DNA of 64,000 nucleotides from NCBI GenBank assembly GCA_031279555.1, contig JAITIK010000143.1:1-64000 (forward strand), given 5' to 3'. The stretch comes from Treponema sp. GTDB lineage: Bacteria > Spirochaetota > Spirochaetia > Treponematales > Breznakiellaceae. The notes under the pieces were generated by a model. That model was not told where the DNA came from. It saw nothing but the letters and a program-made list of their open reading frames with translations, and did no database searches. Positions 9,773 to 44,375 of this stretch are shown here, piece after piece; positions within the stretch are counted from its first letter, which is position 1, and every line of letters begins with the position of its first letter. The position numbers and the translations under genes were made by a program.

Positions 9773-9935
9773 CTAGCAGCCTGTCGCATTTGTAGTTTTT
9801 GCGCCATTTTATACCGTAAAAACCACGATTATTGGGCTTCTGCGAACCTTTGGTTCGATGGCAGTTTGCAAGGTAAAAAACCGTTTTTAAGGCGATTTTT
9901 GGAGATTTTATGCGCGAAGCGCGACAAACTGCTAG
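9773..9935. mobile_element. MITE/REP-like dispersed repeat, copy 1 (terminal inverted repeats CTAGCAGCCTGTCGC / GCGACAAACTGCTAG)
   Basis: Shares two 32-nt identical blocks with 44225-44375 at identical spacing; 13/15 TIR match. Confidence 0.7.
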
Positions 9936-38232: not shown

Positions 38233-39906
38233 TTAGGGCGCGACCTTTGCGTTTTTGAAGAAGAAATATCCAAGCGGCGTATAATACATGCCGGTAATCT
38301 TGGGATTCATCATATAGGTTTGGGTGTAGAAATAGATCGGCCCCACCGCCGCGTCTTGCCCAACAAGGATGTCCTCAGCTTGATGCATAAGCCTCATGCG
38401 CTCTTCAGTTATGGCGGTTGACTGCGCCTGTTTGACAAGCGTGTCAAACGGGGAGCTTGCATACTGGGAATTGTTATTGCCGCCGCCTGTCAGATACATC
38501 TCAAGGAAGTTCATCGGATCGTTGTAATCGCCGATCCAGCCGTCACGGGCGATCTGGAACTCGCCGATCTTGCGGGTGTCAAGGAATACCGCCCAGTCCT
38601 GGTTGCTCAAGGTTACGTTTACGCCGAGCGCGGTCTTCCACATATCCTGAAGCGCTTCGGCGATGGCGCGGTGCGCGTCATTGGTGTTGTATATGTATTC
38701 GGTAACCGGGAAACCTGAGCCGGCAGGGTAGCCCGCCTCCGCCAAAAGCCGTTTCGCTTCGGCGACGTTCTTCTCGTAATCGCCCTCCGCAATGCTGTAA
38801 TAGTCGCCGCCGGTTTGTCGGAAATCGCTGCCCGCGCCCTCCGCATCAGCAATGCCGGACGGCACAAAGCCCGACGCGGGCTTCTGTCCTGCGCGGGTGA
38901 TCTGGGTTACAATGTAGTTGCGGTCAATGGCAAGGGTAAAGGCCTTCCGCACTCTCGCGTCATCGAACGGAGCTTTCTGGGTGTTGAAGCTCACGTAGTA
39001 TGTGCCGAGGTAGGGGACAATCTTGAGATCCCCCGAATCCAAGAGCGCCTGAATTTCATCTACCGGCACCGTCTCAATGAAATCAAGCTCCCCGCTGCGG
39101 AAACCCGCGAGAAGGGCGTTGTCGTCATCCATGAGCGCGAAACGGATCGTCTCGGGTCCGGACACCGGATCGTAGTAGTTGGGATTCTTTTCGACGGTCA
39201 AATGACTGTTGTGAACCCATTCTTTCATGCGGTATGGCCCATTGCTGATGTAGGTCGAAGGGCTGAATGTCCATTGTTCGCCGGCGCTTTCAATAATATC
39301 CTGCCTGACCGGAAAGGTCGCCGGGAAACACGCTATCTCGTCAAAGAACGGGCAATCATAGGTGAGAGTGATTTCCACCGTCGTATCGTCAAGCGCCACG
39401 ACGCCGAGTTCGCTTTTGTCCTTTTCACCCGCCATGATCTCATCGGCGTTCTTCACCATGGTGATCATATAGCTGTAATCAGCGGCGGTCGCGGGATCCG
39501 CCAGGCGGCGCCATGAATACACGATGTCCTGCGCTGTGAAGGGTTTGCCATCAGACCATTTGAGACCGTTGCGCAGGGTATAGGTATACGTAATCGCGCC
39601 GTCATCGTTGACGGCTTTTTGCGGGGCGCTCGCCGCTAATCCGGGAACCGCCTTTGCGATGCCGGATCCATTGTCCTCGTACTTGTAGAGACCTTCGAAC
39701 AGATGCTCCAGATAAATCGCGCTGTCAACCGCCGAGTTGAGCGCGGGATCAATAGTATTCGGCTCGGAGCCGAATACAGCCGTGATGGAAGTCGCGCCAG
39801 ATGTTTGCGCGGCTTGCGGCGCGCCTTCCACCGTCTTTTTCTGGCATGCCGCAATACCCAGCGACAACGCCGAAACCGTCAATAATGCGGACAAGATTTT
39901 CTTCAT
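38233..39906 (-). CDS. oppA: Oligopeptide ABC transporter substrate-binding protein
   Basis: EPNTIDPALNSAVDSAIYLEHLFEGLYKY; lipoprotein signal LGIAAC. Confidence 0.92.
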   Translation of the reverse strand: MKKILSALLTVSALSLGIAACQKKTVEGAPQAAQTSGATSITAVFGSEPNTIDPALNSAVDSAIYLEHLFEGLYKYEDNGSGIAKAVPGLAASAPQKAVNDDGAITYTYTLRNGLKWSDGKPFTAQDIVYSWRRLADPATAADYSYMITMVKNADEIMAGEKDKSELGVVALDDTTVEITLTYDCPFFDEIACFPATFPVRQDIIESAGEQWTFSPSTYISNGPYRMKEWVHNSHLTVEKNPNYYDPVSGPETIRFALMDDDNALLAGFRSGELDFIETVPVDEIQALLDSGDLKIVPYLGTYYVSFNTQKAPFDDARVRKAFTLAIDRNYIVTQITRAGQKPASGFVPSGIADAEGAGSDFRQTGGDYYSIAEGDYEKNVAEAKRLLAEAGYPAGSGFPVTEYIYNTNDAHRAIAEALQDMWKTALGVNVTLSNQDWAVFLDTRKIGEFQIARDGWIGDYNDPMNFLEMYLTGGGNNNSQYASSPFDTLVKQAQSTAITEERMRLMHQAEDILVGQDAAVGPIYFYTQTYMMNPKITGMYYTPLGYFFFKNAKVAP

Positions 39907-40068: not shown

Positions 40069-41022
40069 TTACAGGCGATGACACGCAACCCAATGCCCGC
40101 TTGACGCTTCCCGCAATTCAGGGGCGGCTTCGGCGCACTGTTTTGTTGACAGGGGGCAGAGCGTTCTGAATCTGCACCCGGCCGGCGCATCCATGGGATT
40201 TGGGATTTCGCCTTCCAGCACAACGCGCATACGTGAGCGGGTGATTTTGGGATCCGGAATGGGAACCGCCTGGAGAAGCGTCCGCGTATACGGGTGCAAC
40301 GGCTTCTTGACCAACTCGCCGCTTGGCGCCAATTCAACCAAGTTGCCGAGGTACATTACCCCTATACGCCGCGAAATATGGCGCACCACGGAAATATCGT
40401 GCGCTATGAACAGATAGGTGAGCTTCATCTCCGCCTGCATATCCTCAAGCATGTTCACTATCTGGGACTGGATGGATACGTCAAGCGCGGAAACCGGCTC
40501 ATCGCATACGATAAATTCCGGCTCTACGGCGAGGGCGCGGGCGATGCCCACCCGTTGCTGCTGTCCGCCTGAAAATTCATGCGGGTACCGATTCGCATGT
40601 TCGCTATTAAGCCCAACCCGCGCCAAAAGCGAATTGATATGATCGCTCCGCTCGCTCGCCGACGACGCGAGGCGGTGAATGTCAATGGGTTCGCCCACGA
40701 TTTCGGCGACCGTCATACGGGGGTTCAAGGATGAGGAGGGATCCTGAAAAATAATCTGCATCTTCCGCCTGTAGGAGAGCATTTCAACATGGGTGATGTC
40801 TTGTCCGCGAAAAAAGATGTTTCCGGCGGTCGGTTCGTACAAGCGCAGCAACGTACGCCCGAAAGTCGTTTTTCCGCAACCCGATTCTCCCACGAGTCCC
40901 AAGGTTTCGCCTTCTTCAATATATAAGGAAACCTTTTCAACCGCGTGTATCTGTTTCGTCTTTCCCCAGCCCGCCTTGACTTTGAAATACTTCTTTAAAC
41001 CTTCAACTTCAATGAGCTTCAT
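40069..41022 (-). CDS. oppF: Oligopeptide ABC transporter ATP-binding protein
   Basis: GESGCGKTTFGRTLLRL, FSGGQQQRVGIARALAVEPEFIVCDEPVSALDVS. Confidence 0.93.
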   Translation of the reverse strand: MKLIEVEGLKKYFKVKAGWGKTKQIHAVEKVSLYIEEGETLGLVGESGCGKTTFGRTLLRLYEPTAGNIFFRGQDITHVEMLSYRRKMQIIFQDPSSSLNPRMTVAEIVGEPIDIHRLASSASERSDHINSLLARVGLNSEHANRYPHEFSGGQQQRVGIARALAVEPEFIVCDEPVSALDVSIQSQIVNMLEDMQAEMKLTYLFIAHDISVVRHISRRIGVMYLGNLVELAPSGELVKKPLHPYTRTLLQAVPIPDPKITRSRMRVVLEGEIPNPMDAPAGCRFRTLCPLSTKQCAEAAPELREASSGHWVACHRL

Positions 41023-42065
41023 GGACGATTCCCTCCATCTTTTGAGACAAGCCAGCAGGCGGCGCGGTGGCCGCCCGAGGAGAAGCCCTTGGCATCATCG
41101 CCGGGATTGACAACGGTCTTTTCGGGATTCCGTCTGACGCAGATTTTCATGCAGAATTCGCAACGCGGGGCAAAGGGGCAGCCCGGATTCGGATCGAGCA
41201 TGTTGATGGGCGAACCCTCAATCGGTATGAGCCGCTCCGTTCTTTCCTCGTCAAGGCGGGGCATTGAACGAAGCAATCCTTTTGTGTAAGGGTGAACCGG
41301 CGCGTAGAAAATATCCTCGACCGCGCCTTGTTCCACGATACGCCCGCCGTACATCACCGCTACAGTGTCGCAGATTTCCGCGATAACCGCAAGATTGTGG
41401 GTGATGAAGATGATCGCCATACTGGTTTTCCGCTGAATGGCTTTCATAAGCTCCAGTATCTGCGCCTGAATGGTAACGTCAAGCGCGGTCGTCGGCTCGT
41501 CGGCTATTAAAAGCTGGGGTTCGCAGATAAGACCCATAGCAATCATCACCCGCTGCCTCATGCCGCCGGAAAACTCATGCGGGTACTGGTTAAGGCGGCG
41601 TTCAGGGTTGGTGATGCCCACGAGCCTCAGCATCTCCATCGCTTTTTCACGGGCCGCTTTAATAGAAATTCCGCCGCCGCCCTTGTCCTTCGCATGTTCC
41701 CGCAACACGCTGATCAGTTGATTGCCAATGGTGTACACCGGGTTGAGGCTTTCCATGGGGTTTTGAAAGATCATGCTCATCCTATGGCCTCGAATTTTTT
41801 CCATGTCTTTCCGGCTGTAGGAGAGGAGGTTTTTGCCCTCGAATTCCACAGATCCGCCGGCAACCCGCCCAGGCGGATCGAGCAAGCCCATCACCGTATA
41901 GGCTTCAACGCTTTTGCCTGACCCTGACTCGCCGACAACGCCCATCACTTCGCCGTAATTCAGCGAATACGAGATGCCACCTACGGCTTTCACCTCGCCG
42001 GCCGGCGTAAAAAAGGAGACCCGCAAGTCCTTCACCTCAAGCAACGCTTTTTTCGCTTCCGCCAT
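41019..42065 (-). CDS. oppD: Oligopeptide ABC transporter ATP-binding protein
   Basis: GESGSGKSVEAYTVMGL, FSGGMRQRVMIAMGL, DEPTTALDVTIQAQI. Confidence 0.93.
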   Translation of the reverse strand: MAEAKKALLEVKDLRVSFFTPAGEVKAVGGISYSLNYGEVMGVVGESGSGKSVEAYTVMGLLDPPGRVAGGSVEFEGKNLLSYSRKDMEKIRGHRMSMIFQNPMESLNPVYTIGNQLISVLREHAKDKGGGGISIKAAREKAMEMLRLVGITNPERRLNQYPHEFSGGMRQRVMIAMGLICEPQLLIADEPTTALDVTIQAQILELMKAIQRKTSMAIIFITHNLAVIAEICDTVAVMYGGRIVEQGAVEDIFYAPVHPYTKGLLRSMPRLDEERTERLIPIEGSPINMLDPNPGCPFAPRCEFCMKICVRRNPEKTVVNPGDDAKGFSSGGHRAACWLVSKDGGNRP

Positions 42066-42075
42066 GTTCTCACCC

Positions 42076-43224
42076 CTATTTTTTGAGCCTTGGATCAAGG
42101 GCGTCCCGCAGCCCGTCTCCAAACAGATTGAACGACAAGATCAAAAGGCTTAACAACGCCGCGGGAATGATGAGCCGGTATGTATACGTGTACATGCCGC
42201 CGAGCGCGTCCGAAGCGAGGGAGCCGAGGCTGGTCATGGGCGCGTTGACTCCGACTCCAAGAAAGGACAGGAAGGATTCGAGAAATATCGCCGTCGGTAT
42301 CTGAAGGCAGGTCGCGGCGACAAGCGGTCCCACGCTGTTCGGCAATAGATGCTTGAAGATGATCCGCGCGTCATTTGCGCCAAGCGCGCGGGCGGCGAGT
42401 ACATATTCCTGCTGTTTGAGTTGCAGTATCTGCCCCCGGACGATGCGGGCGAGGGTGGTCCAATAGAGCAACGCGAACGCTATAAATATGGCGATGATGC
42501 TGGGTCCAAGCGCGATGATGAGCATTCCCACTATGTTGGTTTGATTGTTGTTGGCAAAATCGGTAAGCAGGGGCTTGAGCGTAACCGCAAGCAACAACAC
42601 CACGAGCACATCCGGCACCGAGTAGATGACGTCGACGATGCGCATCATCGCCATATCGACCTTTCCGCCGGCATAGCCCGCGATTGAGCCGTAGAGAACG
42701 CCGATCACAAGAGTGAGAATCGCCGCCGCGACGCCTATGATCATGGAAACGCGGGCGCCGTACATCAGACGTACGAGCAGATCGCGTCCGTGCGAATCGG
42801 TGCCGAACACATGAGGGAACACCTTCTCCCCGGCGGCGATGCGCGTCCGCTCCTGTTGGGAATAGGCGAGCGGCTTTAGGTTTTCGCTTCCACGAATCTG
42901 CTCGTCGTAATGATACCCCATGAAAACGGGGCCGATATACGCGAACAGGATGAGGAATACAATCACGCCAAAGGATGTGAGCGCGACATAATTTTTCCGA
43001 AGCCGTCGCCATGCGTCCTTCCAGTATGAGACGCTCTTATACCGCGGCTCAAAGGCTTTTTTCTCCTCAGCGGAAGCGGGCGCGAAAATGTCCTCGTCCT
43101 CCGCTCGATTTTGCGTCGCCTGTACATCAGCTTCATCTTGAAGGCGGCAGTACCCCCCCCCCCCCCCATGAAGCCGATCAAGGAGAGGCGCTTCTTGTGT
43201 TATATGCGCATCTTTTTTACCCAT
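42076..43224 (-). CDS. oppC: Oligopeptide ABC transporter permease; poly-G tract in codons about 20-24
   Basis: FGTDSHGRDLLVRLMYGARVSMIIG, ILEA-like LARIVRGQILQLKQQEYVLAARALGAND; gene order. Confidence 0.92.
   Translation of the reverse strand: MGKKDAHITQEAPLLDRLHGGGGGYCRLQDEADVQATQNRAEDEDIFAPASAEEKKAFEPRYKSVSYWKDAWRRLRKNYVALTSFGVIVFLILFAYIGPVFMGYHYDEQIRGSENLKPLAYSQQERTRIAAGEKVFPHVFGTDSHGRDLLVRLMYGARVSMIIGVAAAILTLVIGVLYGSIAGYAGGKVDMAMMRIVDVIYSVPDVLVVLLLAVTLKPLLTDFANNNQTNIVGMLIIALGPSIIAIFIAFALLYWTTLARIVRGQILQLKQQEYVLAARALGANDARIIFKHLLPNSVGPLVAATCLQIPTAIFLESFLSFLGVGVNAPMTSLGSLASDALGGMYTYTYRLIIPAALLSLLILSFNLFGDGLRDALDPRLKK
43153..43167 (-). repeat. Homopolymer C15 on + strand (G15 on oppC coding strand)
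   Basis: Direct count; encodes Gly x5 in HGGGGGY. Confidence 0.95.
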
Positions 43225-43236
43225 GGAGACCCACCT

Positions 43237-44172
43237 CTAATTCTCATTTGCAAGTTCTATGCGAGGATCGATGATCTTGTACAGAACGTCAACCAGAAAA
43301 CTCATAATGATGACCAGCGCGGCGAAAAATATCGTTGTTCCCATGATGATCGGATAATCACGGTTGCTGATGCTTTGAATGAAGTACCTGCCGAGACCGG
43401 GAATGTTGAAGACCGTCTCAACCACGAATCCGCCGGTCAAGATACCCGCTGTTACGGGTCCCAGATACGTGACAACCGGAATAAGCGCGTTCCGGAGCGC
43501 GTACTTGAAAATCAGCTTGGCGGTGGATGACCCATAGGCGCGGGCGGTTTTGATGTACTCCTTGTTCAACACGTCAAGCATGGAAGAACGGGTGTAGCGG
43601 GCGATGGAACACATGGGCATGAGCCCCAGCGTAAAACAGGGCAGCGCGTAGCTTATCGCGCCTCTGTTTAAGCCGCTTGTCGGAAAAATGCGCCATACGC
43701 CGCCGGCGAAGCACACCAGCAGCGCGGTCGCCACTACAAAGCCCGGAAACGCGATGCCGAGCGTGGTGATCACTTGGAGCAGGCTGTCCTGCCACTTGCC
43801 GCGTTTATACGCGGCGACGCATCCCAGCGCAACGCCCGCAAAGGTTGACCAGAGGAGCGCAATCGCGCCGATACGCGCCGACACCGGAAACATTTCGCTG
43901 ATAATCATCGCAACCGGCCTGTTTTTTTGCATTTTGAGAGACACGCCCATGTCGCCCTTCATAAGGCTCGCAATGTAATTTTTAAGCTGAACGGGAAGGG
44001 GCTTGTCAAGCCCGTATTTCGCTTGCAGTTGCGCGAGTACTTGGGCGGAAATGGCTTTTTCACCGAGAAACGGTCCCCCCGGCACTGTATTCATCAGCAA
44101 GAACGTCAAACAAATGACAAAAAGGAGGGTGACAAAAGCCAAAACGATTCGTTTTACAATATAGGAGAACAT
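43237..44172 (-). CDS. oppB: Oligopeptide ABC transporter permease
   Basis: FSYIVKRIVLAFVTLLFVICLTFLLMNTVPGGPF; FVVETVFNIPGLGRYFIQSISNRDYPIIMG. Confidence 0.93.
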   Translation of the reverse strand: MFSYIVKRIVLAFVTLLFVICLTFLLMNTVPGGPFLGEKAISAQVLAQLQAKYGLDKPLPVQLKNYIASLMKGDMGVSLKMQKNRPVAMIISEMFPVSARIGAIALLWSTFAGVALGCVAAYKRGKWQDSLLQVITTLGIAFPGFVVATALLVCFAGGVWRIFPTSGLNRGAISYALPCFTLGLMPMCSIARYTRSSMLDVLNKEYIKTARAYGSSTAKLIFKYALRNALIPVVTYLGPVTAGILTGGFVVETVFNIPGLGRYFIQSISNRDYPIIMGTTIFFAALVIIMSFLVDVLYKIIDPRIELANEN

Positions 44173-44224: not shown

Positions 44225-44375
44225 GCGATTGTGGTTTTTTGCGGCGCTTTGTACCACAAAAATCCCGATTATTTGGTTTCTGCGAACCTTTGGTTCGATG
44301 GCAGTTTGCGCGGCAAGAAATCGACTAACCGGCGATTTTTTGGGATTTTATGCGCGAAGCGCGACAAACTGCTAG
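44225..44375. mobile_element. MITE/REP-like dispersed repeat, copy 2 (left terminal repeat degraded)
   Basis: Identical 32-nt blocks 44278-44309 and 44344-44375 versus copy 1. Confidence 0.7.

Follow-up and report, generated by a model that had tools for sequence, protein, structure and literature searches.

The run of 15 G in the 5' coding region of oppC, a gene for an oligopeptide transporter permease, is probably a slippage-prone tract that gates the oppC reading frame, so that OppC would undergo slipped-strand phase variation as one outcome of a genome-wide expansion of G runs. We hold this reading with moderate confidence from the sequences compared, and a slipped-strand length change shifting the oppC frame would be the simplest account of them; slippage in living cells, the loss of OppC and any benefit are what we infer from it. 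Understood in this way, the oppC run is a new case of poly-G frame switching, which is already known and has been established in Campylobacter (PMC6321876). The source organism is probably a termite-gut symbiont according to the literature on the group. If the reading is true, such probable symbionts have an unusually large set of poly-G tracts that includes a switchable peptide importer, and close relatives with different equilibrium lengths would make the control of slippery-tract length testable.

The G15 run and the opp operon

The window analysed here is the whole stretch of 64,000 nucleotides, in which direct reading of the sequence gave C15 on the plus strand, i.e., G15 on the minus strand, within the 5' coding region of oppC, as the initial annotation had described (Table 1). 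The run lies 57 nt past the oppC start and encodes residues 20-24 of OppC. The open reading frame begins ATGGGTAAAAAAG, and its translation, ...RLH-GGGGG-YCRLQ..., passes through the run and continues into the OppC body, which bears out the annotated in-frame status of 15 G. The first in-frame ATG, GTG or TTG 3' of the run is a GTG within the first membrane segment, in agreement with the earlier statement that none lies between the tract and that segment. It had also been proposed that 14 or 16 G would truncate the protein. From the oppC ATG, 14 G leads through 62 foreign codons to a stop, as proposed; 16 G leads to a stop after 5 codons, although an ATG bordering the run then enters the OppC frame. 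No Shine-Dalgarno sequence was evident for this ATG on sequence inspection. With this caveat, a change of one base in run length results in frameshift and truncation.

Table 1. Features of the opp cluster and the oppC run (window positions).
Feature	Position	Strand	Basis or remark
oppA-like solute-binding protein (SBP_bac_5), last in cluster	38233..39906	-	Start codon picked by eye
oppF, ATPase	40069..41022	-	
oppD, ATPase, downstream of oppC	41019..42065	-	Orthologue in relative G009 has G15
oppC, oligopeptide ABC transporter permease, 382 aa, frame open at G15	42076..43224	-	OppC_N, BPD_transp_1; Opp3C
OppC N-terminal extension, ~65 residues ahead of OppC_N, contains the run, sequence variable	43030..43224	-	Relatives, Pfam
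G15 homopolymer, five Gly codons, 5' coding region of oppC	43153..43167	-	Sequence; same position in four sister species
ATG adjoining the run (AT precedes G15)	43167..43169	-	In OppC frame only at 13 or 16 G; direct reading, inference
Likely Shine-Dalgarno of oppC, AGAGGTGGG	43230..43238	-	Direct reading
oppB, permease, upstream in same operon as oppC	43237..44172	-	

The identity of the gene was examined with domain models. Pfam placed OppC_N at residues 66-118 (E 1.3e-16) and BPD_transp_1 at residues 175-382 (E 2.4e-30), and the best NCBIfam model was Opp3C at 323.7 bits, below its curated equivalog cut-off of 450. The gene order is oppB, oppC, oppD, oppF and the oppA-like gene, and the product combines both domains of an OppC permease with a position in an oppBCDF cluster.

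The run is far longer than chance would give within an open frame, as expected of a phase-variable gene. About 1.4e-4 runs of at least 15 are expected in 64 kb, shuffles of the window contained a mean of 0.35 overlapping matches to runs of at least 9 vs. 7 observed, and the G15 is the sole G/C run longer than 7 in the window. The assembled length of 15 could be one base out. As a separate observation, the minus strand of the window has two copies of the motif GCGCTTCGCGCATAAAA, at 9906-9922 and 44346-44362, where 0.05 occurrences are expected; a related string lies near a G run in another stretch (L140), and it may be a dispersed repeat.

Length alleles in related species and the proposed frame gate

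The best matches to OppC were from Treponema MAGs, and weaker ones came from other Spirochaetaceae and from Firmicutes. The OppC proteins of four sister species are 87-92% identical, and the tract, whose presence in sister strains had been suggested as a check, was found in these four species at the same place in oppC. Across the five species of the genus, the run measures 15 G in this genome (G000) and in G008, 14 G in G003 and G005, and 9 G in G001; the alleles of 15, 15 and 9 are in frame and the two of 14 out of frame, so that the genomes differ by lengths corresponding to on and off. In G003 and G005, the homologous N-terminus (MDKTN... and MGKTN...) does not share the frame of OppC, and the OppC frame of both genomes lacks a start codon ahead of the run. 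An in-frame GTG stands shortly 3' of the run in G003, and translation may restart there. Between species, the OppC tail changes mainly through insertions and deletions whose length is a multiple of three, on either side of the run. Another relative, G009, has a shorter OppC N-terminus without the run and carries its G15 within oppD (VKAV-GGGGG-ISYS). Among the more distant treponemes inspected, most are without the oppC run and one has C11 in its oppC tail. The run at a homologous site in four species, together with the G15 in oppD of G009, makes a one-off assembly error unlikely and a length-gated frame likely.

We propose that at 15 G (or 9, 12 or 18) ribosomes starting at the oppC ATG would cross the poly-glycine stretch, which sits in a variable and probably dispensable cytoplasmic tail, and would make OppC. 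A slip of one base would cause early termination and leave a transporter without one of its two permeases, and the off state would perhaps also lower oppDFA expression via polarity. Slippage would lengthen shorter runs and shorten longer ones, holding about 100 runs near the species-typical length. Transcriptional or translational slippage on G15 could blur the on/off switch.

G runs across the genome and their possible neutral origin

The whole genome contains 100 runs of G9 or more preceded by a non-G base. In the stretches taken around these runs 101 were counted, of which 74 are 150 bp or more away from any contig end. Counted over the parts of the genome that were retrieved, G runs numbered 452 at length 5, 78 at 6, 8 at 7, 0 at 8, 3 at 9, 1 at 10, 2 at 11, 1 at 12, 1 at 13, 18 at 14, 39 at 15, 7 at 16 and 2 at 17. 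Away from contig ends there is thus a steep fall over 5, 6 and 7, a gap at 8, a scarcity of 9-13 and a sharp peak at 14-16 with its mode at 15; A/T runs in the fetched parts do not extend beyond 10. Long G runs were present in every genome of the genus examined, with a modal length of 15 in G000 and G003, 12 in G004 and 11 in G002 (the last two values rest on 28 runs each), and counts per length class gave the same split of modal lengths in other members of the genus. Two single-contig genomes of the family also have long G runs, and the family maximum is about 300 runs. Family-level counts of runs of 16 or more are inflated by junk at contig ends. In stretches L250-L273, mostly from the single-contig genome G143, G runs of 10 to 61 were seen, several preceded by a string near TATATCCTAGTAAACCTATC and some followed by a string near TAATTCATTATAATACAAGGAATTA. 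Our literature search, thin on subscription journals, found no paper on poly-G runs in termite-gut treponemes.

Because about 100 runs occur in the genome and the trait is genus-wide, the presence of the oppC run alone is weak evidence of a dedicated switch. The initial suggestion of a candidate phase-variation switch is thereby narrowed: the run is real, in frame and recurrent, and 14 G breaks the frame, but it probably belongs to a set of slippery on/off tracts spread over the genome. Only 31 of the 74 runs fall inside called ORFs (from a simple in-house gene caller) at a coding density of 82%, so that genes are depleted; since most runs are intergenic, the oppC run is by itself no evidence of a dedicated switch, and a large part of the set resembles a by-product of mutation.

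The in-gene runs fall in lipoproteins, glycosyl- and acyltransferases, a histidine kinase, transporters and sugar enzymes, and also in NADH dehydrogenase-like, YidC-like and transposase genes. Runs are in frame in genes for an NADH dehydrogenase-like oxidoreductase, a hybrid histidine kinase, an acyltransferase, UDP-galactopyranose mutase, a CDP-glycerol transferase-like protein and lipoproteins. Genes out of frame in the assembly and otherwise open encode two paralogous lipoproteins, acyltransferase-like and YidC-like proteins, a glycosyltransferase and a sugar-binding protein; a further frame-broken gene, of a sensor/AraC pair, codes for a LacI-like sensor carrying an AraC-type domain. Where Pfam gave no hit, lipoproteins and acyltransferase-like proteins were assigned by eye. 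A second OppC homologue has a run near its 3' end.

These data bear on a serious rival, namely that most runs are of neutral origin. According to this explanation, a genome-wide slippage bias grows any G run past about 7-8 bases to a set length, and the oppC run, sitting in a tail that is dispensable, was tolerated there without selection for a switch. We regard it as possible, though clearly the less probable reading, and it is compatible with the oppC run flipping expression, since the frame could still change. It is favoured by the number of runs (about 100), the 43 of 74 that lie outside called genes with genes strongly depleted, the occurrence of runs in transposase genes and the equal modal length inside and outside genes. 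A default-on state in genes, which we considered, appeared in G000 (12/21, p 0.02) and was abandoned because the sister G003 gave 2/9, no better than random, which also speaks for neutrality. On the other side, the oppC run is kept in five species and a sixth has a run in oppD of the same operon, the position of the run in an acyltransferase-like gene differs between G003 and G000, and 14 of the 19 in-gene runs of G000, in a hand-curated set, are placed so that the in-frame length is a multiple of three (p 4e-4).

The intergenic runs gave hints of a promoter role that we did not accept: 33 of 34 precede at least one gene, but just 13% of spacer length is convergent (p 0.08). In co-directional spacers, C is on the sense strand in 14 of 18 (p 0.03). 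A -10-like ATAAT precedes 6 of 45 intergenic runs, and these six include members of one repeat family. About 15 intergenic runs (in L111-L190, e.g., L161, L124, L154, L112 and L177, on C133, C39, C117, C2 and C168, respectively) have homologous flanks and are possibly a dispersed repeat or a promoter-like element; several of them have GATAAT or AATAAT just before the run.

Possible leaky gating, run length and known poly-G systems

Long homopolymers are known slippage sites, and RNA polymerase or ribosome slippage on G15 might mix frames at any DNA length, with the result that OppC output would be lowered and evened without switching. The apparently off 14-G alleles, otherwise intact in two species, would fit such a leaky gate, which we nevertheless judge improbable because poly-G loci already known do switch frames (PMC4085013, PMC6321876). 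A sequencing or assembly artefact, against which the initial annotation had cautioned, is very improbable: 27 of 101 runs lie at most 150 bp from a contig end vs. 2.2 expected, and some are in G/C-rich junk (one is G54), but the oppC run is 29 kb from the nearest contig end with unique flanks and is found again at the homologous site in genomes assembled separately, long runs exist in single-contig genomes of the family, modal lengths differ among species, and poly-G read tails would not be expected to leave G on a single strand between unique flanks. The contig-end clustering itself reflects either assemblies breaking at variable runs or sequence artefacts; clusters in G000 are at C48 (72211 and 72263, outside the window) and at the ends of C8, C23, C53, C83, C89, C96, C120, C193 and C204. 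The termite study PMC9137090, a possible source of these MAGs, sequenced on HiSeq 2500/4000.

Each sister species keeps dozens of unrelated runs, whether in genes or in spacers, at a single narrow modal length of its own (11, 12 or 15), and mismatch repair genes are present. A tentative proposal, to which we give somewhat less than even weight, is that G-run length is an inherited species property, set by a trans-acting replication or repair feature and tuning frame switches genome-wide. A narrow length peak fits insertion bias in shorter runs combined with deletion bias in longer ones, as reported at lower lengths for Campylobacter, with insertions favoured at G8-9 and deletions at G10-11 (cited in PMC4085013). 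Lost mismatch repair was rejected as the cause, as this genome encodes MutS and MutL in open frames that look intact and span 937 and 631 codons, respectively. Among 200 relatives, there was no clear link between MutL absence and run number (5/16 vs. 27/184, p 0.14). Several G-run-rich genomes (G060, G061, G063 and G082, one of which is 94% complete) gave no MutL match. A three-tetrad G-quadruplex limit at 15 is not favoured, as other species peak at 11 or 12.

Several known systems can be compared. The homopolymeric contingency loci of Neisseria meningitidis (PMC4085013) share the model in which insertion/deletion bias leads to an equilibrium length; their tracts are shorter, with 5-13 G tested, and their switching is laboratory-proven, whereas that of oppC is proposed from sequence. 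Treponema pallidum belongs to the same spirochete order, and poly-G length variation is linked there to expression of tpr genes and tp0126 (PMC7864442). However, the tracts described in that work are in promoters, act on transcription and comprise 7-11 G at tprL, while the oppC run has 15 G in a coding frame and lacks the T. pallidum-type placement by promoter elements upstream of a start codon. A further likeness is to Campylobacter (PMC6321876), with G runs in open frames, peaked lengths, out-of-frame alleles and many loci per genome, although the host here is an uncultured Treponema. Campylobacter tracts peak at 9-10 (53% are of 9 and 26% of 10), in contrast to 15 here and 11 or 12 in congeneric species, and 77% of its runs are in ORFs vs. 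42% here. Its strains have 5-81 phase-variable genes, compared with 100 runs of at least 9 in this genome and a maximum of about 300 elsewhere in the family.
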